Assembly (NCBI GenBank): GCA_001803565.1
Contig: MHDQ01000128.1
Location: forward strand, 1 to 31,649
Source: Nitrospinae bacterium RIFCSPLOWO2_12_FULL_45_22
GTDB taxonomy: Bacteria > 2-12-FULL-45-22
Direction: 5' to 3'
Length of the DNA: 31,649 bases
Both the position numbers and the translations under genes were made by a program. How positions within the stretch are numbered: position 1 is the stretch's first letter; each line of letters opens with the position of its first letter. The notes beneath the pieces are model-generated. The model saw nothing but the letters and a program-made list of their open reading frames with translations, did not search any database and had not been told where the DNA came from. Shown here in pieces: positions 384-19,168 of this stretch.

Positions 384-1622
384 ATGAAAATATTGGTTAT
401 TGCTCCTACTCCTTTTTTTGCGGACCGGGGCTGCCATATAAGGATCTATCGCGAAATTGATTATTTGCAGTCCAAGGGGCATCAGGTAGAGCTAGTTACC
501 TATCACCTGGGAGATAATCTGCCAGGCTTAAAAATCCACCGTACTATCAAACTCCCCTGGTATAGAAAGTTAGGTCCCGGACCATCTTTTCATAAACTCT
601 ATATTGACTTTCTCTTATTGTTTAAAGCCTTAAGAGTGATAGGCAAATTTAAACCAGACATCATTCATGCCCATCTTCACGAAGGGGCTATAATTGCTAA
701 AATATGTAGCTGGGTTTATAAAATACCGGTGGTCTTTGATGTACAGGGCTCCTTGGTGGGAGAGCTCAAAGCCCACAAATTTATCCGTAAAAATTCTTTT
801 TTGGGAAAAATCTTTCTATTCATAGAAAGTTGGACTTATCATACGGCTCATATCCTTTTTGTTAATACCAATTATACTGCCGAAAACCTTGTTCGGGATT
901 ATTCCTTAAATCGAGGGTCTATCTTAGTAATCCCTGATGCTGCTATAGATGCCTCCCCTATGACTTTGTTTAATCCACCCGATAGGAAGAGGTCTGAGTT
1001 AGCTATTCCCCTGAATAAGAAAATGGTGGTTTATTTGGGAGTGCTGGGCGAACACCAAGGAACCGACTTTTTGTTGCGGGTAATTCAATATGTCCTGAGA
1101 GAAAGGGACGATATCCATTTTCTTATCATGGGTTATCCCGATGAAAAGAAATATATGAACCTGGCCACAACATATAATATCGCTAAATATGTATCATTTA
1201 CCGGCAGGATACCCTTTACTCAGAGATGGGAATATCTCGCCGTAGGGGATATCGCCGTAGCACCCAAATTTATGGATGGAGGTGAAGGGAATGGCAAATT
1301 ATATGATTATATGATGGCTGGCCTTCCCACTGTTGTTTTTGACCATCCGGTAAACAGGGAAATATTGGGAGATAAAGGCATATATGCCAAAACAGCCGAC
1401 ATTGGCTCCTTCGGAGATTGTATCTTGAGGCTGCTAGGGGACAAAAAATATTATCAAGAAATGAGGGATAAGATAAGGTGCTCCCAGTTTGAGGAGGATG
1501 TATCCGGTAGAAATTCCTTCTTTGCTTTAGAGCAAGTCTTAGAATCTATCCATAGATCAGCAAAAAATGGCTATTTCTGTCACAAGATTCCTGAAAGTGA
1601 AGCAAATACCAGACCATATTAA
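384..1622 (+). CDS. Glycosyltransferase family 4 (GT-B fold)
   Basis: A 412-residue retaining GT4-type enzyme, expected to transfer a sugar from a nucleotide donor to a lipid-linked glycan at the cytoplasmic face. The N-terminal Rossmann half opens MKILVIAPTPFFADRG, the usual GT4 start with a Gly-containing acceptor loop, and contains KPDIIHAHLHEG. The C-terminal donor half contains VVYLGVLGEHQGTDFLL and the donor-site region GNGKLYDYMMAGLPTVV. This is the KLYDYM(A)AG variant, in which the classical EX7E pair is replaced by a more divergent motif. AAGGA lies just upstream of the ATG. The last ~20 residues (KNGYFCHKIPESEANTRPY) look unlike a GT4 end, and a Wzt remnant begins in another frame within them, so the gene end may be a recombination junction. 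Donor and acceptor sugars cannot be read from the sequence. Confidence 0.9.
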   Translation: MKILVIAPTPFFADRGCHIRIYREIDYLQSKGHQVELVTYHLGDNLPGLKIHRTIKLPWYRKLGPGPSFHKLYIDFLLLFKALRVIGKFKPDIIHAHLHEGAIIAKICSWVYKIPVVFDVQGSLVGELKAHKFIRKNSFLGKIFLFIESWTYHTAHILFVNTNYTAENLVRDYSLNRGSILVIPDAAIDASPMTLFNPPDRKRSELAIPLNKKMVVYLGVLGEHQGTDFLLRVIQYVLRERDDIHFLIMGYPDEKKYMNLATTYNIAKYVSFTGRIPFTQRWEYLAVGDIAVAPKFMDGGEGNGKLYDYMMAGLPTVVFDHPVNREILGDKGIYAKTADIGSFGDCILRLLGDKKYYQEMRDKIRCSQFEEDVSGRNSFFALEQVLESIHRSAKNGYFCHKIPESEANTRPY

Positions 1623-1906
1623 ACGGTGAAGACCCGGAGAGTGTCATTACTTGGTATAATGATCTGATGCGCAAGCGGACAGAGAAACGGGCGGATCAAC
1701 TCTCAAGTGGAGCAGTTCAACCCAGCTTGGTAGTTGAACACGGCAGCCGTATGGGAACACATAGGAAGCATCGATCTGTGCTGTCTACCTGTACGATACA
1801 CATTGTAGGACCACTAATATCTTGCATAGTGGTAACGGTCTGATAATTGAGCTTGAATACGGCCTTACTAAATCTCTTTCCAATATCATCTACTCCGACA
1901 CAAATT
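1601..1906 (+). pseudogene. Remnant of a Wzt-type ABC-transporter ATPase: linker and C-terminal glycan-binding domain
   Basis: The gap between two glycosyltransferase genes holds two overlapping reading frames that together read like the end of a Wzt protein. The first piece, from about 1601, contains ILNGEDPESVITWYNDLM, followed by a basic stretch and VVEHGSRMGTHR. The second piece, in another frame and ending at TAA 1904-1906, contains AVYLYD, then HSGNGLIIELEYG. In Wzt proteins the ATPase domain ends in a G-x-PEEVI-x-Y motif; the intact wzt here has GEPEEVIQAYHTDI. The C-terminal carbohydrate-binding domain of long Wzt proteins carries a G-GEA-I--V-L-D---SG-PL-I---Y pattern, which the two pieces match in order. 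A frameshift near 1760-1775 and loss of the whole nucleotide-binding domain make it non-functional. It probably marks the cut left edge of a cassette that once followed another wzm-wzt pair. Confidence 0.6.
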
Positions 1907-1949
1907 AAACGGCTGAGATGAGAATGTAAAAGGTATATAAGGACAATGG

Positions 1950-4337
1950 ATGAATAGTAAAGGTCAAAATCATATCGTTGTTGTGGAAGCTTACGAAGGT
2001 TTTATCGAGTATCTTTCTGATGAGTCAGAGGAACGAAATTCCTTTCAGGGGCTTGGTCTTCCAGTCGAAGAAATTGCCGAGCATCTTGATTGTCGAATTA
2101 CCATTCTTTGTTGGGATCAATGGTATCGTTATGAACTAAAGGAGACTTGGGGGTCAACACCAGCGACACGGCCAGTATCACAACCAGATTTTAGTAACAT
2201 GTCAAGAGTTTTGGAATCCAGCAGAATAAAGCGGATCCCTATTCCCGCGAGAGATCCTGAATACTGGCTTTTATTCGATGAAAAAGGTTTGAGTCCTCGT
2301 TCTCATGGGCTAATCAATGATAGCGGGTTATTATTTTTCGTTTCTTATTGTTTGAGCAAGGAACTTCGAGTATTTTATAATAATGACCCCTTCCAGGTTG
2401 TCATCCTGCCCATGTGGGGTGGCGTCGGATATGTTTCTCAGATGGCAAGGGCAACGCAGGTTTCTAACATGGTGGATGTGCCTTTCGTAGTTGTGGCTAC
2501 AGATAAATCTATTAATCGCCAGATGGCTAATCAGGAGGGAATCTGGACTCGCCAGGCGATTGTTCAACGTCAAATGGAAGATGTTTCGCTTGCTCTGGCC
2601 GACCTTGTGCTGATCTTCGGACCGAGGGGTAATGAGATCGCTATTGATGGCAGGCTTCCCGAATCTCCTTCCCCGGTTTGTGCACCCCGTTTTGTTGAGG
2701 ACTTGTTGGTCGATAAAATTGCCAATGCGTCAGCACAACCTGCTGATACTCACAGTCCTTTAGAATTTTTTCTTCACGAACCCCAACAGGCCGCATCAGG
2801 AGTGCTGACTCTCTTAGATGCCGTTACTCTTTTGACAAATAAGGGGATAAGATTAAATAGGCCGGTGATAAGTGCCGGACCACCCATGATTTTTGCTCCC
2901 ATGAAGCCAAGAACGTTTATGGATTATTGGTCGTCTCGGGGATCTGTGCGTGAACTTATCCGCGAACACCAATGGGAATGGAGGAGAGAATATTCCTACC
3001 TTGATCAGGTTTTCCGGGTTCGTCTTTATCTTAGTTTTTTTGACTATCTTCCAAATGTTTGGGCAGAACTTGCCCGAGGTTCTTTAGTGCTTCTTTCTCC
3101 ATCTGCAGCAGAGGGATTGGCTCCTGGAAAGATTCTTCCTCAGGAGGTCTTAATTCAGGGAGATCCAGTTCCTGAAAAAGTGGCAGATTCTCTGGAGAAA
3201 ATCGCAGGGACAGATATCAAAAAACTCGATCAGATCAGACGAGAGTTATGTGCACGGGTTGTAGAAGCGCACCGAGGAAAGGGGCGACGGCGTCTTATCG
3301 AAAAAACTACCAAAGCCCTTGGACAGATCCTTCAGTCTCCCCCTGAACCACAAGACCTATCACGAATCTCTCTTATGTTTTTTGATCGCCGTGTATCCCT
3401 TCGGACACTTGCACAGAAAGACAAACCACCTCCCTTGCCAGAACCAAGATCAGGCATAAAAAAAGGAACACTGTCTGTTGTTGTGATCTGCTATGAGGAG
3501 GGGTCCATGATCAAGGAAGCTCTAGATAGCGTTTGGGCTTCAGAGCGGCAACCTGATGAGGTGCTTCTCGTCGATGACGGTTCACATGGAGATGAAACCC
3601 TTACAAATATTAGAGAACTTGAAAAGGATGCATCAAAAAAAGGATTCCCTTTAAGGGTTATTCAACAAAGGAACCGAGGATTAGCTTCGGCTAGGAATGC
3701 CGGCCTTGGGGCAGCAAAAGGAGAATTTATCTCCTTCCTCGATGGAGATGATATGATTGAACCTCAGTTCTATCGGATTGCCCTTGAAATTCTCGAGAGG
3801 TATCCGCGTTTGGGGGGGGTCGCCGCATGGGCATTACTCTTTGGTGCTGATATTACCGACGGCTTTTGGAATGCCCCGCAGCCGGAATTTCCTTTTTTAT
3901 TTATTGAGAATAGTATAATCGTTCCCTGTTTGACACGTACGGAACTTTTACGGGATCTTGGCGGTTATGATATCCGTCAACGTTATAATTACGAAGACTG
4001 GGAATTAGGTATTCGAATGCTCGTGTCGGGCTGGCCGATTGTTACTGTTCCCATGCATCTTTTAAAGTATCGTGTCCGTACAAATTCACTCTACCGGAGT
4101 ATGACCTACGTGCAGAATCAAGTTATGCGAGAACTTTTGTTAAACACTCATCGGGAGACAGTTTCCAAATTCTCTGTCGAAATTGCTATGCAATTGGAAA
4201 ATCAATGGATGAAATCCATCCATCCTGATTTAACACCACCCATTTCGATACAAGGCAATAACAATACTGTTTCCTTCTGCAGAAGGCTCTCGCAAAAGGT
4301 TCGAAGGCTTCTTACGCGTACACTAATAACAAACTAA
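1950..4337 (+). CDS. Two-domain protein: degenerate GT-B domain fused to a GT2 glycosyltransferase
   Basis: 795 residues, more than twice the size of a single transferase. Residues ~1-480 resemble a GT4/GT-B fold: a Rossmann-like half with VPFVVVATDKS and ALADLVLIFGPRGNEI, then a segment with FDYLPNVWAELARGSLVLLSP. That segment lines up with ENFPNTCIEAMCSGLPVIAS of the next gene, but the first Glu of EX7E is Asp. From about residue 506 a GT2 (GT-A) domain starts (GTLSVVVICYEEGSMIKEAL). It has LLVDDGS with Asp542-Asp543, LDGDD at 597-601 as the metal-binding DXD, and an ED pair at 682-683 (NYEDWELG) as the likely catalytic base. The GT2 half therefore looks active, while the GT-B half may be altered. 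AAGGA at 1939-1943 supports the start. The next gene has the same architecture, suggesting duplication or co-inheritance. Confidence 0.82.
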   Translation: MNSKGQNHIVVVEAYEGFIEYLSDESEERNSFQGLGLPVEEIAEHLDCRITILCWDQWYRYELKETWGSTPATRPVSQPDFSNMSRVLESSRIKRIPIPARDPEYWLLFDEKGLSPRSHGLINDSGLLFFVSYCLSKELRVFYNNDPFQVVILPMWGGVGYVSQMARATQVSNMVDVPFVVVATDKSINRQMANQEGIWTRQAIVQRQMEDVSLALADLVLIFGPRGNEIAIDGRLPESPSPVCAPRFVEDLLVDKIANASAQPADTHSPLEFFLHEPQQAASGVLTLLDAVTLLTNKGIRLNRPVISAGPPMIFAPMKPRTFMDYWSSRGSVRELIREHQWEWRREYSYLDQVFRVRLYLSFFDYLPNVWAELARGSLVLLSPSAAEGLAPGKILPQEVLIQGDPVPEKVADSLEKIAGTDIKKLDQIRRELCARVVEAHRGKGRRRLIEKTTKALGQILQSPPEPQDLSRISLMFFDRRVSLRTLAQKDKPPPLPEPRSGIKKGTLSVVVICYEEGSMIKEALDSVWASERQPDEVLLVDDGSHGDETLTNIRELEKDASKKGFPLRVIQQRNRGLASARNAGLGAAKGEFISFLDGDDMIEPQFYRIALEILERYPRLGGVAAWALLFGADITDGFWNAPQPEFPFLFIENSIIVPCLTRTELLRDLGGYDIRQRYNYEDWELGIRMLVSGWPIVTVPMHLLKYRVRTNSLYRSMTYVQNQVMRELLLNTHRETVSKFSVEIAMQLENQWMKSIHPDLTPPISIQGNNNTVSFCRRLSQKVRRLLTRTLITN

Positions 4338-4353
4338 AGGATACGAGTCTTTT

Positions 4354-6600
4354 ATGAAACATCTGATCATCTGCCGTGAATATCCTCCTGCACCTGGAGG
4401 AGGTGTTGGAACTTACGTACATAATATATCCCAATTGCTTGCCCAAAGTGGGGAGACTGTCCACATAATTGGACAACTTTGGGAAGGAGCTGAGGAAAAA
4501 GTCGAAGAGAAGTGTCATGGAAGGTTAATCATTCACCGCGTTCATTTCGAAGACTGGAAATTATCTTCTGGCCGGATACTGGGTTCCACTAACAAGTCCA
4601 AAGAAGAGAAAGGCCTTCTTGAATCAAATTTCTATCCTCAATGTTTTTCCTGGCAATCTGGTCTTCTTGCTGAAAGGCTTGTTGATCAGGAAGGAATTGA
4701 CATAATTGAAGCGCAGGAGTATGAGGCGCCCCTGTATTTTTTCCAGTTTCGACGCGCTCTGGGGCTTGGACCAAAACGGCATCCCCCTTGTATCGTACAC
4801 CTACATTCTCCTACCGAATTTATCGCTCAATACAACGATTGGAATATTAGTTCGCCTGCTGTGCAAACGGCAAAACGGCTTGAAGATTACAGCATTGCAA
4901 CAGCAGATGCATTACTTTGCCCCAGCCGATATCTCGCGCATCAAGTAGAAGCTTATTATGGATTGGCAGAAAATACCGTATGGATCATTCCGTGTCCTAT
5001 GGGAGACAATCCTATGCTCGAAAGGAATAAAGACACGTGGGAACATGGAACAATCTGTTATGTAGGGCGACTTGAAATGCGCAAGGGAGTAATAGAGTGG
5101 ATTGATGCTGCTGTTGCGGTTGCTCGTGAATATCCGACAGCATATTTTGAATTTGTCGGCGCTAATGTTCTCGGTAATGCTTGGATGGAGGGCGAGGAGT
5201 TTGTGGAAAGTCGGATTCCAGATGATCTACGGATGAGGTTTTACTTTCACGGCCAAAAAAAGAGATCTGCTATCCCACAGGTCCTGGTAGGTGCCCGTAT
5301 GGCTGTCGTTCCATCTCGCTGGGAGAATTTTCCTAACACTTGCATTGAGGCCATGTGTTCAGGTCTCCCAGTGATTGCGTCGCGTGATGGAGGGATGGCA
5401 GAGATGATCAAGGATGGCCAAACGGGTTGGCTGGCCAGCAAGACAGGATGTGAAGGTCTTGCAGATGCCCTCGGACGTGCGTTGGGGACCCCGTCGGCAA
5501 AGATTGCCGAAATGGGACGTAATGCATCGTTGGACATAAGAAGGATGTGCGATAACAAGAAAATTGTGGAAAGCCATTTAGATTTCCGCAGTCAGATTGT
5601 TAATCAAGGCGCAAAACGTTCTTTGTACCTGCCATTGAATTTGCCTTGGGCCAAAAGGCCACTTTCTGATGAGTCAGAGCGCCGAACTCCAAAAAAGAAT
5701 TCTGAGAAAGGTCTCGCCATTGTAATCACCTGCGCCAATAACGGCCGATTCCTCGACGAATGCTTGAGGAGTATTGAACGGCAGACTCGCAGGCCGGCGT
5801 CTGTTGTTATTGTGGATGACAAATCGACAGAGGAGTTAACATTGAAAGCTCTCAACAAAGCACAACAAGAAGGATGGCGGATTATTCAAAAAAGAAAGGG
5901 GGATCTTTTACCTGCTAAGAATACCGGTATCGAAGCAATTCTCAGTTCTGAGCCAAATCTCCTTGGTTTTGCTTTTCTCAATACGGAGGACCGGCTGCAG
6001 CTAGGCTTTGTTGCAGCATGCGAATCGGTTCTTCAACATTGCCCTGAAGTTGGTATCGTTTCCTGCTGGACTCATTATCTCTGGAGTGATGGGAGAATCT
6101 GGATCAGACCTTGTCCCAGCTTCCCTTACCAGTGGTTATCCAACGATGCGGTTCCTTTTAGTGCCATACGAACCGATGCATTGCGTGAAGCTGGTTACTT
6201 TCGTTCCGTAATGAGTCGAGAGTACGATGATTGGGATCTTTTTAATGCCGTAATGGCAGCAGGTTGGGTTGCTGTAACCATACCTGAGATACTTGGTGAA
6301 CACTGGTTCATAGATGACTCAATGCTCCAAACGAGTCTTCATATCTATGGGAAGATGCGTCGAGAACTTCTTGAAAGATTTCCAGATTTAGTCGCACGTG
6401 ATGCCAAGGATATCATTCTTCTCTCTGTGTGTGATACAACAAGGTTATTACGCGAAAAACATTTCAAAATATGGCTACAATGTGCAATAAAACGAATGTT
6501 ACCCTACTCCGCTCTATGGGTTCTTAAGAAAGTAAAAAACAAAATGCTTCGGAATGGCCCAGCTTGGATGTCTAACTTTATTTTTCGTGTGACGAGTTGA
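4354..6600 (+). CDS. Two-domain GT4 + GT2 glycosyltransferase fusion
   Basis: 748 residues with the same order of domains as its upstream neighbour. The N-terminal GT4 (about 1-420) begins MKHLIICREYPPAPGGGVGTYV, a typical acceptor-loop start. It has ICYVGRLEMRKGVIEW for the donor domain and an intact EX7E (WENFPNTCIEAMCSGLPV, Glu324 and Glu332), so this half is probably catalytic. The C-terminal GT2-like half starts near residue 453 (GLAIVITCANNGRFL) and keeps VIVDDKS (Asp488-Asp489) and an RSVMSREYDDWDL segment. The DXD position reads FLNTEDRL (543-546), a non-standard metal site, so its activity is uncertain. The two fusions thus each carry one clearly conserved domain and one altered domain, in opposite halves. 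It follows the previous stop by 16 bases, with AAAGGAT in the gap. Confidence 0.85.
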   Translation: MKHLIICREYPPAPGGGVGTYVHNISQLLAQSGETVHIIGQLWEGAEEKVEEKCHGRLIIHRVHFEDWKLSSGRILGSTNKSKEEKGLLESNFYPQCFSWQSGLLAERLVDQEGIDIIEAQEYEAPLYFFQFRRALGLGPKRHPPCIVHLHSPTEFIAQYNDWNISSPAVQTAKRLEDYSIATADALLCPSRYLAHQVEAYYGLAENTVWIIPCPMGDNPMLERNKDTWEHGTICYVGRLEMRKGVIEWIDAAVAVAREYPTAYFEFVGANVLGNAWMEGEEFVESRIPDDLRMRFYFHGQKKRSAIPQVLVGARMAVVPSRWENFPNTCIEAMCSGLPVIASRDGGMAEMIKDGQTGWLASKTGCEGLADALGRALGTPSAKIAEMGRNASLDIRRMCDNKKIVESHLDFRSQIVNQGAKRSLYLPLNLPWAKRPLSDESERRTPKKNSEKGLAIVITCANNGRFLDECLRSIERQTRRPASVVIVDDKSTEELTLKALNKAQQEGWRIIQKRKGDLLPAKNTGIEAILSSEPNLLGFAFLNTEDRLQLGFVAACESVLQHCPEVGIVSCWTHYLWSDGRIWIRPCPSFPYQWLSNDAVPFSAIRTDALREAGYFRSVMSREYDDWDLFNAVMAAGWVAVTIPEILGEHWFIDDSMLQTSLHIYGKMRRELLERFPDLVARDAKDIILLSVCDTTRLLREKHFKIWLQCAIKRMLPYSALWVLKKVKNKMLRNGPAWMSNFIFRVTS

Positions 6601-6619
6601 TATGGAAAGGTGTACAGGC

Positions 6620-7561
6620 ATGAATATACTTATATCGGCTATAATATGCACGCATAATCGTGCTAAGTATTTGACAAAAGCAATTCAAAGCCTGGTGGAT
6701 CAATGCACACCCAAAGACAAGTACGAAATCATAATAATAGACAACTGCTCAACGGATTCCACGAAAGAAGTAGTAGAACGATTTATAGGCAACAGCAATA
6801 TAAAATACATCTATGAATCAACCTTGAGTCTTTCATTTGCACGGAACACTGGCTGGAGCAATGCAAAGGGAAAGTATGTTGCTTACCTGGATGATGATGC
6901 TGTTGCTTGTCCAGTTTGGCTTGACAAAATTTTAGAAGTATTTGAAACCGTAACACCGAGACCCGGTTGCGTAGGTGGGAGGGTAGAATCAATATGGGAA
7001 TCTCCTAGGCCGAGATGGTTGTCAGATTGGCTTTTACATGGTCTTACCATCATAGATTGGTCAGAAACTCCGCATGTTTTGACTAATCTTTCTGCGGAAT
7101 GGCTCGTTGGAGCTAATATTGCTTTTCCGATTGAAATTCTTAAAAGCGTTGGTGGATTTACCTCAAGTCTTGACCGGGTGGGGAATAATCTCTTATCAAG
7201 TGGTGATGTATTCCTTGAAAAACAAATCACCAAAATGGGATATTCCTGCTTTTATCATCCAGACATCGCTATCGGACATCACATATTTGAATCGCGACTT
7301 AGTCAGGCCTGGTTCATTCGTAGGTATTACTGGCAGGGCATTTCTGATGCGGTAATGCAAATACTTCAAGAAAGACCTTCAACATTAAAGCGATTACGCT
7401 TTTCTATCTCGGAGGCGGGAATCTTTTTACGATCACCAAAAAAAATAATTACTCTTATGTTGCCAACAAGTGATCCAGAACAGTTTACTCAAAAATGTTT
7501 TGATTTAATAACATTGGGGCATATATACGGCTTATTAAGATTTGCGAACCGATGGCTATAA
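6620..7561 (+). CDS. Glycosyltransferase family 2
   Basis: A GT-A enzyme of about 313 residues: ISAIICTHNRAKYLTKAIQS at the N-terminus, IIIIDNCSTDST for the nucleotide-binding loop, SFARNTGWSNAKGKYVAYLDDDA with Asp91-93 as the metal-binding DXD, then a GANIAFPIEILKSVGGF acceptor segment. I chose the ATG at 6620 because GGAAAGG sits 9-10 bases upstream. An in-frame ATG at 6602 would add six residues (MERCTG) but has no ribosome binding site. It overlaps the next gene by 10 bases, so the two are probably translationally coupled. The expected product is one glycosidic linkage in the repeat unit; sugars unknown. Confidence 0.87.
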   Translation: MNILISAIICTHNRAKYLTKAIQSLVDQCTPKDKYEIIIIDNCSTDSTKEVVERFIGNSNIKYIYESTLSLSFARNTGWSNAKGKYVAYLDDDAVACPVWLDKILEVFETVTPRPGCVGGRVESIWESPRPRWLSDWLLHGLTIIDWSETPHVLTNLSAEWLVGANIAFPIEILKSVGGFTSSLDRVGNNLLSSGDVFLEKQITKMGYSCFYHPDIAIGHHIFESRLSQAWFIRRYYWQGISDAVMQILQERPSTLKRLRFSISEAGIFLRSPKKIITLMLPTSDPEQFTQKCFDLITLGHIYGLLRFANRWL

Positions 7562-8634
7562 ATATACATCTAATTCGCACCCAACGTCCTCATTGGGGTA
7601 CATACTCAGGCATAAATCAGTTTTTAAAATATGTTGATCATAACAAATATCACATAGATGTTTATGTTGCATCAGATCATGATGGAGATTTTCCAATACG
7701 AAACCGAGTGGTACAAAAATGGTTACGTTATATAGTGCAACGAAACGGTATGCAATATTATAAGCTGAGCGACCTGACTGCTGAGATCAAAGCGTTCCGT
7801 AAATGCTGGTGGAATAAAATCGATATAATCCATTATATGGATGGCGAGCACTCGGCGCAGTATTTGTCCTGGTTATGCAAACTACATCGAAGAATGAGGC
7901 CGAAAATAGTTGCTACGTATCACCAGCCTCCGGAACTGTTAGATTCACTTATTCGCAAGGATGTCATCTCCAGGTTCGATTACATCACCGTAGTATCGCC
8001 GGAGCAAGTATCTTACTTTAAACAATTTGTGCCATCTGATAAAATACAGTTAATTCTGCATGGCATAGACACTCACCATTTTAAGCCGGGCGGTACTCTA
8101 AAAGATAAAAATAAGTTCAAATGTATAACGACGGGCCACTGGCTAAGGGATTTCAAGGCTGTACGAGAGGTAGCAGAGAAATTGATGGCATATAAGGACA
8201 TAGAGTTTTACGTTATGACGTCTAAATTAACAGGTCCTAGAGTAACCGGACTGGAAGGTCTAGCAAACGTTACGCTATATAGAGATCATATTGATGATGC
8301 AAGATTATTAGAACTGTACCAGCAGTCAGATATATTGTTCCTGCCTTTGTTACAGTCTACGGCAAATAATGGGATTCTTGAAGGGATTGCTTGCGGGTTA
8401 CCGGTAGTGTCAACTTACTTGCCATCCGTGAAGGCATATCTACCGGGGAAGGAAGCTGTCTTGATAAAAGATAACGATCCAAAACAAATCGTAGATGCGA
8501 TATTGCATTTGGTTCATAACCCGGAGGACTGTAAAAATATGGCGTTAGAAGCTCGCAAGAGGGCTGAAGAACTTGATTGGCAGAACATCGCCCCACAATA
8601 TGAAGCGGTCTATTCTAAACTAAAAAGTAGTTAA
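7552..8634 (+). CDS. Glycosyltransferase family 4
   Basis: A 360-residue GT-B enzyme. The N-terminal half has WGTYSGINQFLKYV (acceptor loop with Gly), IDIIHYMDGEH and KIVATYHQPPE. The donor half has FKCITTGHWLRDFKAVREV and DILFLPLLQSTANNGILEGIACGLPVVST. At the EX7E site the second Glu is kept (ILEG), but the first falls on Ser, so the sugar-ring contact is changed and activity may differ from standard GT4. The start overlaps the end of the upstream GT2 by 10 bases in another frame, and a downstream gap of 23 bases leads into the radical SAM gene. Its composition is AT-rich, unlike the GT4-GT2 fusions just before it. Confidence 0.87.
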   Translation: MAINIHLIRTQRPHWGTYSGINQFLKYVDHNKYHIDVYVASDHDGDFPIRNRVVQKWLRYIVQRNGMQYYKLSDLTAEIKAFRKCWWNKIDIIHYMDGEHSAQYLSWLCKLHRRMRPKIVATYHQPPELLDSLIRKDVISRFDYITVVSPEQVSYFKQFVPSDKIQLILHGIDTHHFKPGGTLKDKNKFKCITTGHWLRDFKAVREVAEKLMAYKDIEFYVMTSKLTGPRVTGLEGLANVTLYRDHIDDARLLELYQQSDILFLPLLQSTANNGILEGIACGLPVVSTYLPSVKAYLPGKEAVLIKDNDPKQIVDAILHLVHNPEDCKNMALEARKRAEELDWQNIAPQYEAVYSKLKSS

Positions 8635-8657
8635 TCCGATATTATACGGACAATGGT

Positions 8658-9722
8658 ATGGATACTACAGTAGGACATAAAAAACTATTTTGTTCCAGAC
8701 CATTTAAGTGGTTTGAAGTGACTCAGGTGAATGAAATTGGAGAAGTGTATGTGTGTTGTCCCTCATGGCTGGATACACCCATAGGAAACCTTACGTATCA
8801 ATCGGTTGAAGAAACATGGAATGGCAAAAAGGCACAAGAATTCCGACGTTCAATTCTGGATGGTTCTTTCAAATATTGTAATCGTTCCAGATGTCCTTTT
8901 TTGCAAACCATATCGGAACCAGTTGAGAGAGTTGAAGACGTTAAAGATGAAGATCTAAAAATAATAATAGAAAAAAAACTTACAATTTTGCCATATGGGC
9001 CGAGAGAAATTAATTGTAGCTATGACAGGTCTTGCAACTTATCCTGTCCATCATGCCGTACGAAAGTAATTATAGAAAATGGGAATAAGCAGCAGATATT
9101 AAACATTCAAGGTAAAATCAACAATGAAGCTCTTAAGGATGCCCATCTTTTATATATTACAGGTTCGGGGGACCCTTTTGGTAGTCCTTTTTTTAGGAAG
9201 TGGCTGCAAACTATGAAGAGAGGAGACATGCCAAATCTTAAGAAAATACATTTACATACAAATGCACAGTTATGGACACCACAGATGTGGTCTACAATAC
9301 CAAAAGACATACAACAACTTGTAAAAACTGTTGAAATTTCAATTGATGCGGTAAGTTCAAGGACCTATTCTATCAATCGCAGGGGCGGGAGTTTTGAAAG
9401 GCTTCTTGAAAATCTTGAATTTATTCGCATATTACGCAAGAATGTCCCATTTGAATGGTTTGGTATAAGCATGGTTGTTCAGGAGAATAATTTTATGGAG
9501 ATGCCTGCTTTTGTGCTTCTTGGCCAGCGTTTTCATGCTGATACTGTTTATTTCAGCCAATTAGTAAATTGGGGGACATATTCTAATAAGGAATTTAGCA
9601 ATCGAGCAATTCATCTTCCCACTCATCCAAAACATGTAAAGTTTGTTGATCTCCTTAAGAACGAAATTTTTAATGAACCACTTGTTTATTTGGGAAATTT
9701 AACGAACGGGAGTTTTGTATGA
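8658..9722 (+). CDS. Radical SAM protein with an N-terminal SPASM-like cysteine segment
   Basis: 354 residues. The radical SAM core is shown by CNLSCPSC (Cys126, Cys130, Cys133; the CX3CX2C motif that holds the 4Fe-4S cluster and binds S-adenosylmethionine), with ITGSGDPFGS in place of the usual GGEP motif. Ahead of it lies a cysteine-rich segment with Cys12, Cys33-Cys34, Cys74 and Cys79, and the pattern GEVYVCCPSW...IGNL....EETWN. That pattern is typical of SPASM/twitch domains binding auxiliary clusters, which normally follow the core rather than precede it. In glycan clusters such enzymes may modify a sugar or a carrier group, but the substrate here is not inferable. Its last four bases overlap the next start (ATGA), so it is in the same transcript as the GT2-deacetylase gene. 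The start is preceded by GGACAATGG, the same nine bases found before the gene at 1950. Confidence 0.83.
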   Translation: MDTTVGHKKLFCSRPFKWFEVTQVNEIGEVYVCCPSWLDTPIGNLTYQSVEETWNGKKAQEFRRSILDGSFKYCNRSRCPFLQTISEPVERVEDVKDEDLKIIIEKKLTILPYGPREINCSYDRSCNLSCPSCRTKVIIENGNKQQILNIQGKINNEALKDAHLLYITGSGDPFGSPFFRKWLQTMKRGDMPNLKKIHLHTNAQLWTPQMWSTIPKDIQQLVKTVEISIDAVSSRTYSINRRGGSFERLLENLEFIRILRKNVPFEWFGISMVVQENNFMEMPAFVLLGQRFHADTVYFSQLVNWGTYSNKEFSNRAIHLPTHPKHVKFVDLLKNEIFNEPLVYLGNLTNGSFV

Positions 9723-11326
9723 ATGTGTCTGTCATCATACCCGCTCATAACGCAGCAAAAACAATATCCGAAACGCTTGAGTCTCTCCGTACCCAGACTC
9801 ACCAGGGTTGGGAGGCGTTTGTTATTGATGACGGGTCGAGCGATGAAACGGCAGCTATTGCCACGAGTTTCGTAGAAAAAGATTTTCGAGTTCACACGAT
9901 CAGCCAGCTACAGATGGGAGTCTGCGCAGCCAGGAATACTGGGATTAGACTAGCCAACTTCGATTGGTTGCTCTTCCTCGATGCTGACGACTGGCTCCTT
10001 CCTTTGCATCTGGAGCGATTGACGGGTAAGCTTATTTCTAACCCTAATCTTGATGCCGTCTATTGCGACTGGGCCCGCGTTGCTTCGGATGGAACACGAG
10101 TTAGCGAGGAGTTCTGTTACCTTTCGGGGGATATGTTTCCTACGTTCGCGTGCCGTGCCGTTTTTCCTATTCATGCCTGTGTTGTTCGTCGATCGATTGT
10201 CGAATCAGTCGGAGGCTTCGACACATCGTTCAGGACTTGTGAAGAATGGGATCTGTGGCAACGCATCGCCCGTACTGGTGCTCAATTTGGTGTGATTAGT
10301 GAGGTATTTGCACTCTATCGTATGCAGCCAGTGTCTACTTCGATGGACGGTTTCCAGATGCTTGCAGACGGTCTTCGCGTGCTAGAACAAGGACACTCCC
10401 ACGACACGCGTGTGCAAAATCCGCATCCAGCCCATGTAAATGGATTACCGAAAGAACAACTTATAAGCCAAAAGTTTTATTTATCTTGCTGGTGTGCCGG
10501 CCTCATACTCGGTTGTGAGAAGGATGCCAGGCCATTACTCAGGGCTCTCAAGGACAATCGCTACCCACAACTCGACCCAAGTGGTGTTGCACGAAATATT
10601 TTTCTGGCTGCACTGTTGCCCACGTGTCAAGCTCCATCTGCTTGGGTTCAACTTTGGCCTCGCATAGAACAGTGTGTTAACGAATTTCTGCTGGCTCTCG
10701 AAGAGCAATCTAAAGCTCCTGGGTTGTACCGTCGTACTCGTGCTGTTCTGGGGCGTTTGATTCTAAAAAATTCTCCAAGTTCCCGGTCGCAGACAGTTGG
10801 GATGATTCATGAGGTTTGTGTCGAGATCACGGAACCACTCTGTGACATTAATCCTCCAAAGCCAGCCGAACGTATCCATTGCAAATTGGAGTTTGAAGGG
10901 ACAAGCATTGGTACACTTGAGCTCCCGGTTTGTGATGGTGTTGTTTCTCGTTATGTATTTGCTGATGCCATAGCGGCCGAATTTTTTTGGGTTATTATTG
11001 GGCGGTTTTTTGAGCGTACAGTCTACCCCAGCCTCAGCATCAGACATGAGCCGGATGGTGCATCGATTTGGCGGGGAACACTGTGCCTTGCAAAATCACT
11101 TCCTGGAGATGAGTTTGCAGTCAGACAACAGCTCCACAAGCAAGTTGGCTGGACAGTTTTTTTACAGGAGATATGGGGGTGTAAGGATCAGCCACTCGAT
11201 GGTTTTTACACGGATGACCGTGCAGTGTCTTTGAAGAAGGTTGGTTGGAAGACATTCTTACAGGAGTTCTATGCGAGTATTTTTAAAACGACATCAACCT
11301 CGCGGTATCCATTACAGGGGGCCTAG
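9719..11326 (+). CDS. GT2 glycosyltransferase, N-terminal part of an interrupted GT2-deacetylase protein
   Basis: 535 residues to the TAG at 11324-11326. The first ~250 form a GT2 domain: MNVSVIIPAHNAAKTI, VIDDGSSDET with Asp37-Asp38, LLFLDADDWLLP with DAD at 88-90, and RTCEEWDLWQRIARTG with the EEWD catalytic-base motif. This half should be active. The remaining ~280 residues form an uncharacterised helical then beta-rich linker, containing a repeated VGWxxFLQE motif at about 476 and 508. Beyond the TAG the same frame stays open without another stop to 11986 and then joins, by a frameshift, a polysaccharide deacetylase. In the database family that I recall, GT2 and deacetylase domains occur on one chain. 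The gene is therefore most simply a broken bifunctional protein (mutation or assembly error). The start overlaps the radical SAM stop by four bases. Confidence 0.82.
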   Translation: MNVSVIIPAHNAAKTISETLESLRTQTHQGWEAFVIDDGSSDETAAIATSFVEKDFRVHTISQLQMGVCAARNTGIRLANFDWLLFLDADDWLLPLHLERLTGKLISNPNLDAVYCDWARVASDGTRVSEEFCYLSGDMFPTFACRAVFPIHACVVRRSIVESVGGFDTSFRTCEEWDLWQRIARTGAQFGVISEVFALYRMQPVSTSMDGFQMLADGLRVLEQGHSHDTRVQNPHPAHVNGLPKEQLISQKFYLSCWCAGLILGCEKDARPLLRALKDNRYPQLDPSGVARNIFLAALLPTCQAPSAWVQLWPRIEQCVNEFLLALEEQSKAPGLYRRTRAVLGRLILKNSPSSRSQTVGMIHEVCVEITEPLCDINPPKPAERIHCKLEFEGTSIGTLELPVCDGVVSRYVFADAIAAEFFWVIIGRFFERTVYPSLSIRHEPDGASIWRGTLCLAKSLPGDEFAVRQQLHKQVGWTVFLQEIWGCKDQPLDGFYTDDRAVSLKKVGWKTFLQEFYASIFKTTSTSRYPLQGA

Positions 11327-11986
11327 ATCATAGTCGAGGTTGGTGATGAACTTCGCGATGTGGAGCTATCAGGCCAAGAACTCAATGTTGTTCTAACGCT
11401 AGGTGGGGTGATGCTTGGGGTTGTGAGCATTCCCGTTAAAAAGAACATTGTACGTGCTCAGGAACTGCGAGTGGCTCTCACAAAAGCAAGTGGCCTTGAA
11501 TTGTGTCGGGCAGTTGTTCGTGAGGGTTTGCTTGGCAGGTCAGTGGTAGACATGCCAACATCGCTTCGAGATCGCTTGGTGGCTGTAAAGAAATCATTTG
11601 TACAGCGTAACCGAAATGAATCGCTCTTGAGGACGTGCACTGATGTTGTATTTGTGCCTGGAACTGACTGCGCTCTTGATTATGTGCTTTCAGCAGGAAA
11701 TTTTATCGTAATGCTCGGACGACATCTACACGGGGAGATTGGGACAAGTACCTCACGGCGTGCAATGCTACCTGCAGCAGCCCTTACCGAACTCATCAAT
11801 GCCGCTTCGGTAGTTGGTGAGCCCGTGATTCAGGCTCCAGCGACGAGTGAACAACCTAAACATATAGTTTACGCCCCAGAACTAGTCTGGCGTCCGTTGC
11901 GAGGTACGCAGGTATCTTCCACAAAAGCTAATGATCCTGGAATGGTCCAGAGAGAGCTCAGTATTCGACAACAAAAGTTATGTTGA
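11327..11986 (+). pseudogene. Middle segment of the interrupted GT2-deacetylase gene
   Basis: This is the direct in-frame continuation past the TAG at 11324. It reads IIVEVGDELRDVELSG and onward for about 220 residues to the TGA that ends QQKLC. The longest open stretch with its own possible start begins at GTG 11360, but there is no ribosome binding site, so independent translation is unlikely. No known domain is recognised. The sequence is beta/alpha mixed, with YAPELVWRP near the end. The downstream deacetylase frame overlaps it from about 11886, and a one-base shift near 11950-11965 would join SSTKANDPGMVQRE to SSVFDNKSYVEL. Codon use (CGT/CGA arginine, GC-rich third positions) matches the flanking segments, which supports one original gene. 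Confidence 0.62.
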
Positions 11987-12800
11987 GTTGGCGCAGCAAC
12001 CCACGGAGCTCCTACCCGAAGTTGCCGCGCATGTTCTATGGGATGTTGGTCGTCCTAACCGTAGCTGTGATCAGCAAAACGTTGTTACCGACCGACTTCC
12101 GATCCTCATGTACCATCGCATTGCACCAAACGGCGCATCTTCGACTGCTCGTTATCGGGTAACGCCTGAGTTGTTCGAAGAGCAACTACGTTATTTGCGT
12201 GATACTGGGTATTATAGTGTTAGTCTTGAAGGGTGGCGCAAAGCAATGGAAAAGAAAAGTCCACTTCCCGGCAGGGCAGTGATAATTACCTTTGACGATG
12301 GGTATCTTGATTTTCTTACCTACGCGTGGCCATTGTTGAAGCGTTATGGCTTTTTGGCTACTGTCTTCCTGGTGGCAGAGCATGTTGGGGGAACAAATAG
12401 CTGGGACAGCATTTATGTAGAGGAGGTACCGCTCCTTGGATGGGAAGACATCAGACAACTCCGGGATGAAGGGGTTGAATTCGAATCCCATTCGGCTAGC
12501 CACCCTTATCTTACTGCCCTTTCGCCAGAGAAGATTGTTAGTGAAGGGGCTCGATCGAGAGCGATCCTTGTGCGTGAGCTTGGGGTAACCATAAAGGCCT
12601 TTGCGTATCCTTACGGCGATGTTGATCATGTTGTTCAGCACCTTATTGGGGCATGTGGTTATATTTTTGGTCTATCCTGCCGATGTGATTTGAGCGGCTA
12701 CCATGATCCTTTTCTAGCGCTACCACGGCTCGAAGTGTTTGGTTTTGATAATTTGCAAGCTTTTATTGCAAAGCTCAGCGTTTGTGAGACGCAGGTTTAA
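11931..12800 (+). CDS. Polysaccharide deacetylase (NodB/CE4 domain), C-terminal part of an interrupted gene
   Basis: The CE4 domain starts near residue 57 (LPILMYHRIAP). It shows all the main motifs: ITFDDGYLDFL (Asp122-Asp123), ESHSASHPYLT with His187 and His191 for the metal triad, and FAYPYGD at 225-230. The enzyme class removes N-acetyl groups from hexosamine-containing glycans, usually outside the cytoplasm, but no signal peptide or membrane segment is visible here. The first ~55 residues have no domain and are probably the tail of the linker from the upstream frame. No ribosome binding site precedes ATG 11931, and the reading frame is open from 11886 only, so it may be made poorly or not at all as a separate protein. 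It was most likely the third part of one GT2-linker-deacetylase polypeptide beginning at 9719. Confidence 0.85.
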   Translation: MILEWSRESSVFDNKSYVELAQQPTELLPEVAAHVLWDVGRPNRSCDQQNVVTDRLPILMYHRIAPNGASSTARYRVTPELFEEQLRYLRDTGYYSVSLEGWRKAMEKKSPLPGRAVIITFDDGYLDFLTYAWPLLKRYGFLATVFLVAEHVGGTNSWDSIYVEEVPLLGWEDIRQLRDEGVEFESHSASHPYLTALSPEKIVSEGARSRAILVRELGVTIKAFAYPYGDVDHVVQHLIGACGYIFGLSCRCDLSGYHDPFLALPRLEVFGFDNLQAFIAKLSVCETQV

Positions 12801-12952
12801 GGCTAGTAGTTATTAGATTAACGTTGGTTGTTATCCGAGTGATTGGATTGGGACTAGGTTTACGATTATAACTGGCAGAGCAGGTAGGGCAGATTATAAC
12901 TGTCGGAAGGTTACTGTATCAGCGGGAATTTTCTGAGGTCTTTATCCAAGTA
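12801..12952 (+). promoter_or_regulatory. Leader of the wzm-wzt genes with a possible promoter
   Basis: This 152-base gap separates the GC-richer deacetylase gene from the AT-rich wzm. TTGGAT at 12843-12848 and TATAAC at 12867-12872 are separated by 18 bases and could be -35 and -10 boxes. The 11-mer GATTATAACTG occurs twice, at 12864-12874 and 12892-12902, overlapping the proposed -10, so it could be a regulator site or chance. No hairpin terminator is visible for the upstream gene. Confidence 0.25.
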
Positions 12953-13732
12953 ATGATTAGTCAAATTCTAGAAACTATGCGATACCGAGAAATGATAAAG
13001 AATATGGTCATCCGTGATCTTAAAGTAAAATATCAGCGTTCCCTTTTGGGTTTCCTCTGGACCCTGCTAAATCCCTTGCTATTGTTTGTCATATACATAA
13101 TAGTATTTTCTCAGGTAGTGCGGCTGGAGATACCTCATTATTGGGCCTTTTTACTCAGTGGTCTATTTGCGTGGAATTTCTTTGCTCAGTCCATTGTAAC
13201 TGCTTCTAATGCAATCCGGTATAATGCTAATCTGACTACCAGGATATATTTTCCCCAGGAAGTGCTGATAGTAAGCAGCGTGCTTTCTAAACTGGTAGAG
13301 TTTGGGCTGGAGTTATTTATATTGTTGGGGATTTTTTTAATTTTCTATCCAAAAATCTACCTTCTCAATCTATTTTTTTTACCGGTAGTAGTATTAATCC
13401 AAACCATTCTTATTATCGGACTCGTTTTTCCCCTTTCTTGTCTGATGGTTTTTTTCAAGGATATGGAGCATATCCTCTCACTTTTAATGACTGGCTGGTT
13501 TTTTTTGACCCCCATATTCTATCCCGATTTTTTAATCCCTACCGTATATTTAAAGTATTTTGAATTGAATCCCATGTTTGATCTTATTTCTCTTTACCGG
13601 TCCCTGCTCTATCAAGGAGAGTTACCTGATGTAATCCAGCTTTTCCGGAGTTGCAGCGTTTCAATCCTATTCTTTTTGGTAGGTTATAATATCTTTAATC
13701 GGTATAAAGCCCTTTTTGCAGAAGTAGCCTAG
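12953..13732 (+). CDS. wzm: Wzm: ABC-2 type polysaccharide export permease
   Basis: 259 residues, the normal length for Wzm/TagG permeases. It starts with a short cytoplasmic amphipathic part (MIKNMVIRDLKVKYQRSLLGFLWTLLNPLL, reading the conserved RDLK-RY-S-LG-LW-LL-P block) followed by about six hydrophobic spans. The last third has the characteristic FFLTPIFYP segment before NPMFDLISLYR. The protein forms the inner-membrane channel with Wzt and moves completed, lipid-linked polysaccharide to the periplasmic side. The ATPase gene follows after four bases, so the two are co-translated. It is AT-rich, like everything downstream. The ribosome binding site is weak. Confidence 0.95.
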   Translation: MISQILETMRYREMIKNMVIRDLKVKYQRSLLGFLWTLLNPLLLFVIYIIVFSQVVRLEIPHYWAFLLSGLFAWNFFAQSIVTASNAIRYNANLTTRIYFPQEVLIVSSVLSKLVEFGLELFILLGIFLIFYPKIYLLNLFFLPVVVLIQTILIIGLVFPLSCLMVFFKDMEHILSLLMTGWFFLTPIFYPDFLIPTVYLKYFELNPMFDLISLYRSLLYQGELPDVIQLFRSCSVSILFFLVGYNIFNRYKALFAEVA

Positions 13733-13736
13733 CCCT

Positions 13737-14483
13737 ATGCTGCTTATAGAATGTCATTCAGTTAGTAAAAAATTCTATTATTATCATGAAAGAAGCAAAA
13801 CATTAAGAGGGGCATTTCTTGACTTATTCAAAGGATGCGCAAGGTTGAACGGCGAGTGGTATACCATAAAAGATTTTGATTTAGAAGTCCATAGGAATGA
13901 AACGGTAGGACTAATTGGCCGCAATGGTTCGGGTAAGAGCACTATCCTAAAGCTCATTTCTAAGGTCTATAGACCCACTTCGGGCTATATTAGAACCCAA
14001 GGGAAAGTTGTTGCTTTACTGGAGCTAGGGGCAGCCTTCCATCCGGAATTAACCGGTAGAGAGAATATATATTTGAATGGATCAATCCTGGGACTAAGCA
14101 AAAAAGAAATAGAGCAAAAATTTGATCCTATAGTATCTTTTTCCGAGTTATCTCAATTTTTAGATACACCGGTAAAATATTATTCCTCTGGCATGTATGC
14201 CCGGTTAGGGTTTTCCATCGCTATCTTTGCTAACCCGGATATCTTATTGATAGATGAAGTCCTTGCTGTAGGAGACGAAGAATTCAAGCAAAAATGCTGG
14301 AATAAAATTGATCAATTCCAAAAGGAAGGCAAAACTATTCTGTTGGTGTCCCACGATTTAGATACCATAAAAAAGCTCTGTTCCCGGGTAGTATGGCTGG
14401 AAAATGGTATGATTCAAAGGGAGGGAGAGCCAGAGGAAGTTATCCAAGCTTATCATACGGATATTTCTCTGAGAAATCAATAG
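13737..14483 (+). CDS. wzt: Wzt: ATP-binding subunit of the polysaccharide ABC exporter (short form)
   Basis: 248 residues. It has Walker A GRNGSGKST (61-69), the Wzt-typical ELGAAFHPELTGRENIYLNG segment (96-115), signature YSSGM (149-153), Walker B ILLIDEVLA (169-177) and the H-loop His206. All are intact, so it should hydrolyse ATP to drive export through Wzm. It ends shortly after GEPEEVIQAYHTDI and lacks the extra C-terminal carbohydrate-binding domain of long Wzt proteins. It should therefore belong to the class that does not need recognition of a capped chain end. In contrast, the debris at 1601-1906 comes from a long-form Wzt. Two GT2 genes follow within the same run. Confidence 0.95.
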   Translation: MLLIECHSVSKKFYYYHERSKTLRGAFLDLFKGCARLNGEWYTIKDFDLEVHRNETVGLIGRNGSGKSTILKLISKVYRPTSGYIRTQGKVVALLELGAAFHPELTGRENIYLNGSILGLSKKEIEQKFDPIVSFSELSQFLDTPVKYYSSGMYARLGFSIAIFANPDILLIDEVLAVGDEEFKQKCWNKIDQFQKEGKTILLVSHDLDTIKKLCSRVVWLENGMIQREGEPEEVIQAYHTDISLRNQ

Positions 14484-15417: not shown

Positions 15418-16434
15418 ATGGCTCAAAAATTTGTCTCCATAGTTGTTTTAACCTCTAAGTGGGGAGAGCGAGGAAAGCACCTGGACGAATGTTTGCAGGG
15501 TATATATAGACAGAGTTTTAGAGACTTTGAGATTATCCTGGTTACCAATGGATTGGGAGAAAGTCAGGTACACTCTATTAGAAAGAAATATGACAAGCTA
15601 AAGATAATAAAGAATGAGGTAAATAAAGGCTGTGCTACCGGAAGAAACCAAGGAATCGAACAATCGCGGGGAAATTATATTGTTACCCTAGACGATGATG
15701 TTATCCCTGATGATAGCTGGTTAGAAGAACTTGTGACACCGGCATTAAATGATGAAAGCGTAGGGATGGTGGCCTCCAAAATATTATACAGTTCGCGTCC
15801 CGATACCATAGATAGTGCAGGTATTGAAATTAGTAAAGATGGCAATGCTTACCATCGGAAAGGTTTGGCCAGAAACGGCGGGTATGAGCAAAGTGAGGAG
15901 ATATTTGGTCCTTGTGGCGCTGCTGCCCTGTACAAGAGGGAGCTTTTTGAGGACATAGGGCTGTTTGATGAGGATTATTTTATCTATTACGAGGATGTTG
16001 ACCTGGCATTTCGGGCGAGGCTGGCGGGTTGGCAATGCCTATATGTCCCCCAGGCCATTGCATTTCACCACCATTCCTGGTCCTTGGGGCAGGAATCCAG
16101 CCAAAAGATTTTCTTTATCGAGAGAAATAAAATTTTAACCATCCTGAAAAACTGGCCGATAAGAGCAATGCTTTTATATGCCCCCTTAATAATAGGTTAC
16201 GACCTCATGGCCGATGGTTATTATATATTATTGAAAAAGGACTTTTCCAGATTACGGGCCAAGCTCAGTGCCCTGAGGCAGTTACCCAGGGTCTTGCGAG
16301 AAAGAAGCAAAATCCATGGCAACAAAAAGATTTCTGCCCCAACTATAAGTAAATTCTTGGCCGCCCCTTATGCCCCTTGGGTCATTTATAAACGACGTTG
16401 TCGATTGAACCATATATTGTGCTTGACTGGATAA
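15418..16434 (+). CDS. Glycosyltransferase family 2, rhamnosyltransferase-like (WbbL/WcaE type)
   Basis: 338 residues. It has VSIVVLTSKWGERGKHLDECLQ, a shortened nucleotide loop (LVTNGLGES, without the usual DDGS), CATGRNQGIEQSRGNYIVTLDDD with Asp92-94, GPCGAAALYKRELFEDIGLFDEDYF, and YYEDVDLAFRARLAGW with the ED catalytic pair. The FDEDYFIYYEDVDLAFR block is typical of GT2 enzymes that add rhamnose or similar deoxysugars, but the sugar is not certain. A hydrophobic stretch near residues 245-270 suggests membrane association. It ends 14 bases before the antitoxin start, and the ribosome binding site of the antitoxin overlaps its stop. Confidence 0.88.
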   Translation: MAQKFVSIVVLTSKWGERGKHLDECLQGIYRQSFRDFEIILVTNGLGESQVHSIRKKYDKLKIIKNEVNKGCATGRNQGIEQSRGNYIVTLDDDVIPDDSWLEELVTPALNDESVGMVASKILYSSRPDTIDSAGIEISKDGNAYHRKGLARNGGYEQSEEIFGPCGAAALYKRELFEDIGLFDEDYFIYYEDVDLAFRARLAGWQCLYVPQAIAFHHHSWSLGQESSQKIFFIERNKILTILKNWPIRAMLLYAPLIIGYDLMADGYYILLKKDFSRLRAKLSALRQLPRVLRERSKIHGNKKISAPTISKFLAAPYAPWVIYKRRCRLNHILCLTG

Positions 16435-16448
16435 GGAGGAAAAACAAG

Positions 16449-16643
16449 ATGCCGCAATTACAGATTGAAATAACGGTGGAAGATATAAAAAAGATATTGC
16501 CTCAATTATCAAAAACACAAATATTGGAGCTAGATCAAAAAATCCATGAATATTTAGAAACTCAAATGATGATGGCAGCTGCTGCAACAGCCTTTTCCGA
16601 ATGGGAAGATCCTGAGGAAGATATATATAATGAGTATTTATAA
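16449..16643 (+). CDS. Antitoxin partner of a MazF/PemK-family toxin
   Basis: A 64-residue acidic protein starting MPQLQIEITVEDIKKILPQL and ending DPEEDIYNEYL, with a helical middle (KTQILELDQKIHEYLE) and an alanine-rich stretch. I chose ATG 16449 because AAGGAGG at 16433-16439 is nine bases upstream; a longer reading to 16398 would run into the previous gene. Its end overlaps the toxin start by 14 bases, the usual antitoxin-then-toxin arrangement. It has no clear DNA-binding fold of the AbrB, RHH or HTH type. The name rests mainly on position and size. The acidic tail is the likely toxin-binding part. Confidence 0.75.
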   Translation: MPQLQIEITVEDIKKILPQLSKTQILELDQKIHEYLETQMMMAAAATAFSEWEDPEEDIYNEYL

Positions 16644-16974
16644 CCCCGGAGATATTGTCTTGGTAAACTTCCCTTTTACCGATTTATCCTCTTATAAAGT
16701 GAGACCTGCCTTAATCATTGCAACAAAAGGCGAAGACGCGATAGTGATAGGAATTTTTTCTAATGTCCCTGATTTCTTAAAAGATTCATGGATAGTGATC
16801 GAAGAAAGTTCACCATATTTTAAACAGATGGGTTTGAAGAAAAGATCAGTAATAAAGACCGAGAAAATAGCAACTATCCATAATTCCGTGATTAAAGCGA
16901 AGATCGGTGCTATTTCCTCGGAGGCAATGAGAGAAATAAAATCAACTTTAATTAAGACTTTGGCACTTAATTAG
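16630..16974 (+). CDS. PemK/MazF-family toxin (probable mRNA interferase)
   Basis: 114 residues, the usual MazF length. The SH3-like barrel signature is clear: YNPGDIVLVNFPFTDLSSYKVRPALII near the start (GDIV, the FPFTD loop and Arg25-Pro26 of the RPALI motif), then KRSVIKTEKIATIH and IGAISSEAMREIKSTLIK at the C-terminus. MazF toxins cut mRNA at short sites and are held in check by the antitoxin encoded just upstream; the two reading frames overlap. The last codons and stop (16972-16974) lie inside the left arm of a long hairpin element. If that element is an insertion, it may have supplied the stop. The position amid sugar genes suggests a stabilising addiction module. Confidence 0.9.
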   Translation: MSIYNPGDIVLVNFPFTDLSSYKVRPALIIATKGEDAIVIGIFSNVPDFLKDSWIVIEESSPYFKQMGLKKRSVIKTEKIATIHNSVIKAKIGAISSEAMREIKSTLIKTLALN

Positions 16975-18116: not shown

Positions 18117-18154
18117 GTCTTGGGCTTCAAAGGGGCATGAAAATTGGGCAAGCA

Positions 18155-18221
18155 GGACGTCTGGCACACACTTTATGAAGTCGATATTCACTAATAAGTA
18201 ATAAGACAGACGTCTCGCCTG
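18155..18221. repeat. Short inverted repeat (GACGTCTG arms)
   Basis: GGACGTCTG at 18155-18163 is matched in reverse by CAGACGTCT at 18207-18215. The surrounding GGCAAGCAGGACGTCTGGC and GACAGACGTCTCGCCTG keep partial pairing. It is a REP-like extragenic palindrome candidate in a gene-free stretch, and it may be part of a dispersed repeat of this genome. Confidence 0.35.
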
Positions 18222-18236
18222 TTAGAAAGGGTTTTT

Positions 18237-18578
18237 ATGAAAATATTGTGGTACGGTTTGGCAGGAGTTACATCGTGGATTTGGATATGGAGGGAAGAGA
18301 AAAAATTATTAAGGGAGGTGCTAACCAACTCGTCCGCCTGCCAAATATTATTTCCCAAAAAGCGAGTGAAGCTGGAGAGGGATTTAGTGAAGGGTGTAAG
18401 GGCTTGTACCATGGATGAGGTATGGGCTTCTTTGCCCAATTGGATAAAATTGATGATAAAAGAGGAAAAGAGCTTGAAAGAGGGACTTGAAAAGAAACCA
18501 CTGAACCAGGATAATATATCTTGGATATCTTGTTTGGCATTTTTGAATCTCACAGGCTGTCCTCCTTTCTGGCTATAA
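18237..18578 (+). CDS. Doubtful small ORF
   Basis: A 113-residue frame starting MKILWYGLAGVTSWIWIW, followed by a lysine- and glutamate-rich helical stretch, with AAAGGG five bases before the ATG. No family is recognised. The last residues are encoded by the terminator-like hairpin at 18554-18632, which argues against a native C-terminus. The next frame over the same DNA is also open for a long way (IVDLDMEGREKIIKGG...ISQKASEAGEGF, then a stop at about 18417), so the segment could instead be a decayed gene read in two frames. I see no way to choose from the sequence alone, and it may not be coding. Confidence 0.22.
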   Translation: MKILWYGLAGVTSWIWIWREEKKLLREVLTNSSACQILFPKKRVKLERDLVKGVRACTMDEVWASLPNWIKLMIKEEKSLKEGLEKKPLNQDNISWISCLAFLNLTGCPPFWL

Positions 18579-18632
18579 GATTATAAATTGGTTTTTTATT
18601 TAGCCAATTATAGGATGACAGCCTCTTTTTTT
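18554..18632 (+). terminator. Hairpin followed by a T-run: probable Rho-independent terminator
   Basis: AGGCTGTCCTCCT at 18554-18566 pairs with AGGATGACAGCCT at 18612-18624 (12 of 13 positions). An inner stem, TATAAATTGG with CCAATTATA, folds the intervening bases, and CTTTTTTT follows at 18625-18632. Stem plus T-run fits termination of a forward transcript, although the hairpin is longer than usual. It would separate the 17148 GT4 unit from the genes starting at 19169. Confidence 0.5.
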
Positions 18633-18790
18633 ATCCTCTAAAAAAGTGCAAGAGTTTAGTATAATAATTTTTCCCATATTGGGTAATTTGTTTCCCAAGT
18701 TTTCTCTACCTTTTATGTTTTTCCTAGAACTATCTCCCACAAAATACCCCTTTTTTAGGCTATTTTAAGATAAATTATGGTCATATCAAT

Positions 18791-19131: not shown

Positions 19132-19168
19132 AAATTTTGGGGTATCTGCTTTATGATATGGGAGAATC

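Follow-up and report, generated by a model that had tools for sequence, protein, structure and literature searches.

The segment at 1628-1904 of the window, by which we mean the whole 31,649-nucleotide stretch analyzed here (MHDQ01000128.1, contig C128 of the 3.67-Mb, 321-contig draft assembly of Nitrospinae bacterium RIFCSPLOWO2_12_FULL_45_22), is a wzt pseudogene fragment that forms the 5' boundary of a cassette of glycan-biosynthesis genes (1628-12800), the latter likely acquired horizontally from a Brocadiales-type (anammox Planctomycetota) donor. The fragment is truncated at both its 5' and 3' ends and is frameshifted; it derives from a long-form wzt, and a second piece of such a gene lies at the far end of the cassette. 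The genes and remnants described below from 384 to 14483 are on the forward strand.

The original prediction had placed a Wzt linker and C-terminal domain in two frames of the gap 1601-1906, with a frameshift near 1760-1775, and had proposed a search against Wzt_C profiles. On translation, piece A (frame 1601-1843) contains ILNGEDPESVITWYNDLMRKRTEKRADQLSSGAVQPSLVVEHGSRMGTH, and piece B (frame 1765-1908) reads EASICAVYLYDTHCRTTNILHSGNGLIIELEYGLTKSLSNIIYSDTN and then a stop. Searches of Pfam, including its Wzt_C model, and of PDB sequences with the two pieces directly returned zero matches, and the proposed check therefore fails by itself; the match came instead from profiles of closer relatives. 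When bacterial genomes were scanned with the joined pieces (A-X-B), one relative was recovered, from Candidatus Brocadia sp. AMX1 (L007, 5308-6594): an intact Wzt of 428 aa, in which an ABC ATPase domain (ABC_tran, 45-176) is followed by Wzt_C (PF14524, 271-405). Closely related Wzt proteins, with 54-90% identity over the C-terminal region, were found in a further 10 Brocadiales genomes. We built protein and DNA profiles from these 11 intact Brocadiales Wzt, leaving the remnant out.

Piece A matches the protein profile with E 2.3e-17 (hmmsearch; model 230-277, window 1601-1840) and piece B with E 1.3e-11 (model 276-317, window 1765-1905), such that the two pieces abut directly in Wzt model coordinates. 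The DNA profile (nhmmer) gives a single left-side match that spans both, at 1628-1904 with E 5.6e-61, and tblastn with the 11 Brocadiales Wzt also matches the remnant. It corresponds to residues ~231-328 of ~428, and piece A is thus assigned by profile alignment to the linker and the start of Wzt_C, with piece B falling within the first half of that domain. The predicted identity and position of both pieces hold; the limits are narrower, since the homology begins at ~1628 rather than 1601 and covers only the first half of Wzt_C. The frameshift is also confirmed, as a 2-nt shift near 1759-1765. Five codons have been lost in-frame before IYSDTN, and the remnant stops abruptly before the VKCFET motif, the last ~90 wzt codons being absent there. 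Over the surviving part, amino acid identity to functional relatives is 48.9-67.4%, about the same as that of the relatives among themselves. No part of the ATPase domain remains, Wzt_C is cut to half, and GT4_412, rather than a wzm, lies immediately upstream. These features mark the remnant as a pseudogene descended from the long-form Wzt family and not a working member of it; with a frameshift, no ATPase part, and half a binding domain, the remnant is predicted to do nothing.

Immediately upstream is a 412-aa glycosyltransferase gene (GT4_412, 384-1622; Pfam GT group 1 and GT4), whose stop codon is separated from the start of the wzt homology by ~6 nt and for which a search of the Brocadiales loci at a threshold of E 1e-10 gave no homologue. 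Leftward extension of the wzt homology into the tail of this gene (a possible H-loop, "SQDS", at 1577-1591) was rejected, as its DNA score was at or below that of shuffled sequences. A 12-nt near-identical direct repeat, CATATTAAACGG at 1615-1626 and CAAATTAAACGG at 1901-1912, flanks the left remnant only; it may be the trace of a deletion or an insertion, although it could be due to chance. Downstream, positions 1906-1949 form a spacer and ribosome-binding region before GT795, and the GT795-proximal part resembles the wzt-GT795 spacer of one Brocadiales genome, G167 (aligned ...aaGGACAATG.ATGAA.AGTAAA..).

The DNA profile also matches 12806-12893, between the stop codon of a deacetylase gene (12800) and an intact wzm (12953), with E 1.5e-10 and a local DNA score of 58 against a shuffle maximum of 32. 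This scrap, which the original prediction did not mention, is out of frame and contains stops; it reads YYINVGLYP.DW...VYDYHWQ, corresponding to wzt residues ~363-390, near the 3' end of the gene and within Wzt_C near its C terminus. It has the same orientation as the left remnant and covers part of wzt that is absent there; pieces of long-form wzt that do not overlap thus flank the cassette on both sides. No wzt scrap directly follows the deacetylase gene in the 7 Brocadiales loci. Extension of the scrap past ~12893 to the wzt stop was unconvincing, with 21 of 500 shuffles scoring as well.

The first intact gene of the cassette, GT795 (1950-4337), encodes a 795-aa protein with a C-terminal GT2 domain and 70-78% amino acid identity to orthologues in 7 Brocadiales genomes; its N-terminal ~500 aa (1950-3440) match nothing in Pfam despite ~70% identity to the Brocadiales proteins. 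Genes for GT748, GT2_319, GT4_360, a radical SAM/SPASM protein (354), GT535, orf208, and a PgaB-like polysaccharide deacetylase (289) follow at 4354-12800; they are colinear with the Brocadiales loci, at roughly 41-79% amino acid identity, and the Brocadiales genes after GT795 run in the same order as the window cassette from 1950 to 12800. The orf208 product (11360-11986) matches no Pfam family, and its position is conserved in Brocadiales. Long-form wzt lies upstream of GT795 in all seven GT795-carrying Brocadiales genomes and directly adjoins it in six, about 2.5 kb separating the two genes in G159; wzm precedes wzt in six of the seven loci, and in the other, G167, the contig ends inside wzt. 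In the window, GT4_412 stands where those loci have wzm and the ATPase half of wzt. Some Brocadiales loci appear frameshifted as well, with wzt split across frames in G173 (L028/L022, C1:1268053-1268639) and wzm and GT795 split in G159 (L058).

GT795 was not found in the 144 other genomes of the comparison set or on plasmids; among 294 sampled genomes from the phylum to which G145 belongs, only 3, all Brocadiales, carried it. Five cassette genes are each 61-79% identical to Brocadiales; combined, they give 66-74% between the window and the Brocadiales loci, compared with 63-91% among those loci themselves. In an unrooted tree (iqtree), the window branch falls among Brocadiales and is no longer than the inter-Brocadiales branches.

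The recipient is placed outside the Brocadiales by its 16S rRNA, which is about 77-81% identical to Brocadiales 16S. Composition was scored with a Markov model of 4-base words, for which 14 stretches of the recipient genome and a set of Brocadiales loci served as training data. GT4_412 scores -16 nats/kb (recipient-like), the left remnant +22 (Brocadiales-like), the cassette genes +9 to +30, and wzm, the short wzt, and GT2_301 -9 to -13 (recipient-like). Composition thus flips between GT4_412 and the remnant, is Brocadiales-like across 1561-12800, and reverts between the deacetylase gene and wzm, leaving foreign sequence between recipient-like flanks; the result was unchanged with a Brocadiales training set free of cassette homologues. 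The flanks are recipient-like on balance, more weakly so than typical contigs of the recipient genome, and the window past the short-form wzm-wzt is mostly recipient-like, with slightly positive scores at 25-27.5 kb. No transposase was seen among the genes inspected.

The right flank opens with an intact, recipient-type wzm (12953-13732; ABC2 permease, PF01061), whose best Brocadiales match is just 36%, followed by an intact 248-aa wzt (13737-14483; ABC_tran) with no Wzt_C match. This Wzt ends directly after the NBD/linker, and its match to the 11-Wzt profile is limited to model 5-242; the pair 12953-14483 thus comprises an ABC ATPase lacking the C-terminal domain and its Wzm partner, and the window has no other intact wzm-wzt pair. 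As originally proposed, the intact wzt is of the short form, and the profile match of the remnant, taken with the limits of the short-form protein, assigns the remnant to a different, long-form exporter. Another intact long-form Wzt, with a different C-terminal domain, is encoded on contig C43 of the same genome. A Wzx-like flippase (22473-24005) and an O-antigen ligase/Wzy-like protein (26846-28288) share the locus with the ABC exporter, and thus two export routes are encoded together. The glycan locus also includes, at 16398-16974, a PemK/MazF-like toxin gene (16630-16974) preceded and overlapped by an 81-aa ORF, a probable antitoxin; about 1 kb without a recognizable gene (18120-19165), possibly decayed, in which the 2 ORFs searched have no Pfam match; and a gene for a 669-aa protein (20405-22414) that matches no Pfam family.

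Of the two histories originally offered for the locus, a switch of export type or assembly from a second cluster, the latter is favored, because the stretch from the remnant to 12800 is syntenic with and compositionally like Brocadiales while GT4_412 and the short-form exporter are recipient-like. On the simplest reading of these comparisons, the probable source of the cassette is a Brocadiales-type donor that has not been sampled; because the best Brocadiales identity over the five genes is ~74% and the donor is unsampled, passage through an intermediate carrier is possible. In the donor, wzm and a long wzt would have stood ahead of GT795, and the ~11-kb cassette would have landed between the recipient-type GT4_412 and the recipient-type short-form wzm-wzt. 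We infer that transfer ran from donor to recipient and that loss took place at integration rather than later, the cassette having arrived, or been cut on arrival, without wzm and the ATPase part of wzt, that is, without its cap-recognizing exporter; the long-form exporter may never have arrived intact at the recipient locus.

In characterized systems, export is gated by the C-terminal domain of Wzt, to which the capped end of the chain binds (PMC9445017; PMC11231755), while Wzt proteins without this extension typically serve glycans without a chain-terminating modification (PMC3989065). Since the sole intact wzm-wzt pair in the window is short-form, any cassette glycan is today probably exported by that transporter without cap proofreading, or else via the Wzx-like flippase; the long-form Wzt on C43 could be an alternative exporter.

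The other history, an in-place exporter switch, is possible though clearly less probable than import of a cassette that arrived, or was left on arrival, without its exporter. Here, the recipient lineage would have held a complete Brocadiales-type operon and lost wzm and most of wzt once the short-form pair took over, the remnant being the product of later decay. The scrap beside the short-form wzm implies that more of wzt was once present, and the identity of the left remnant to functional relatives, as high as among those relatives, indicates slight sequence decay, both of which favor such a switch. On the other hand, no wzm remnant accompanies the native wzm, which is the sole match in the window, and recipient-type sequence directly adjoins the left breakpoint; no recipient relative within the comparison genomes was found to carry the complete operon, the listed relatives in that set comprising one of the same order and others all listed as "same domain."

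A circle or tandem copy that integrated through wzt and then underwent deletions could possibly account for the bracketing of the cassette, as could displacement of the 3' piece of wzt at integration. That long-form wzt itself served as the recombination boundary, the cassette having integrated through it (e.g., as a circle or tandem copy) and left complementary, same-orientation pieces at both ends, is a speculative extension that we consider improbable; if true, exporter-specificity genes would also serve as sites of exchange through which entire glycan cassettes pass from one phylum to another. Still less probable is a chimeric contig, in which a Brocadiales contig was joined to recipient contigs in a mixed metagenome: the organisms could co-occur, the composition break is sharp, and the window is one contig of a 321-contig draft, but this would require two independent joins, both falling at decayed pieces of a single gene and both with recipient-like sequence on the outer side. 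By analogy with long-form systems in which a carbohydrate-binding domain supplied in trans can restore export (PMC9445017), the remnant might be imagined to act in trans with the short-form Wzt as a functional stand-alone domain; the frameshift, the absence of about half of Wzt_C including its C-terminal strand, and the stops in the second scrap make this very unlikely. A chance resemblance, or derivation from a different gene family, to which the lack of a direct Pfam or PDB match might point, is refuted by the 11-Wzt profile result, given the DNA-level E of 5.6e-61, the positional orthology, and the adjoining model ranges.

With import from a Brocadiales-type donor, our preferred reading, the locus would be a case in which a surface-glycan cassette of anammox type was acquired across what appears to be a phylum boundary, with scars of the donor exporter gene at either end. 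Long-form Wzt proofreads the chain end via Wzt_C whereas short-form Wzt does not, and the locus would thus offer a natural experiment on whether export in a glycan pathway can shift from cap-gated to ungated.

The intact orthologues of the remnant share the NBD-linker-Wzt_C order, with wzm immediately upstream, of the long-form, cap-binding (PF14524) systems of E. coli O8/O9a, Aquifex aeolicus, and Klebsiella O12; the window, in contrast, keeps the linker and half of the domain, frameshifted, plus a detached near-C-terminal scrap. In its architecture, the product of 13737-14483 resembles the short-form Wzt of group D of the Cuthbertson scheme (Haemophilus parainfluenzae strain 13; PMC3989065), likewise lacking Wzt_C. 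Unlike in such systems, however, the short wzt of the window belongs to the recipient-type flank and not to the imported cassette. Movement of polysaccharide cassettes that leaves pseudogene scars is a familiar type of event, of which the present case is an unusually well-preserved example. As in horizontally exchanged O-antigen and capsule cassettes with leftover exporter or ligase genes, the window holds a swapped block with exporter remnants at its edges; it differs from those exchanges in that the donor group and recipient belong to different orders, apparently different phyla, and in that the two fragments on either side of the cassette come from non-overlapping parts of one gene.
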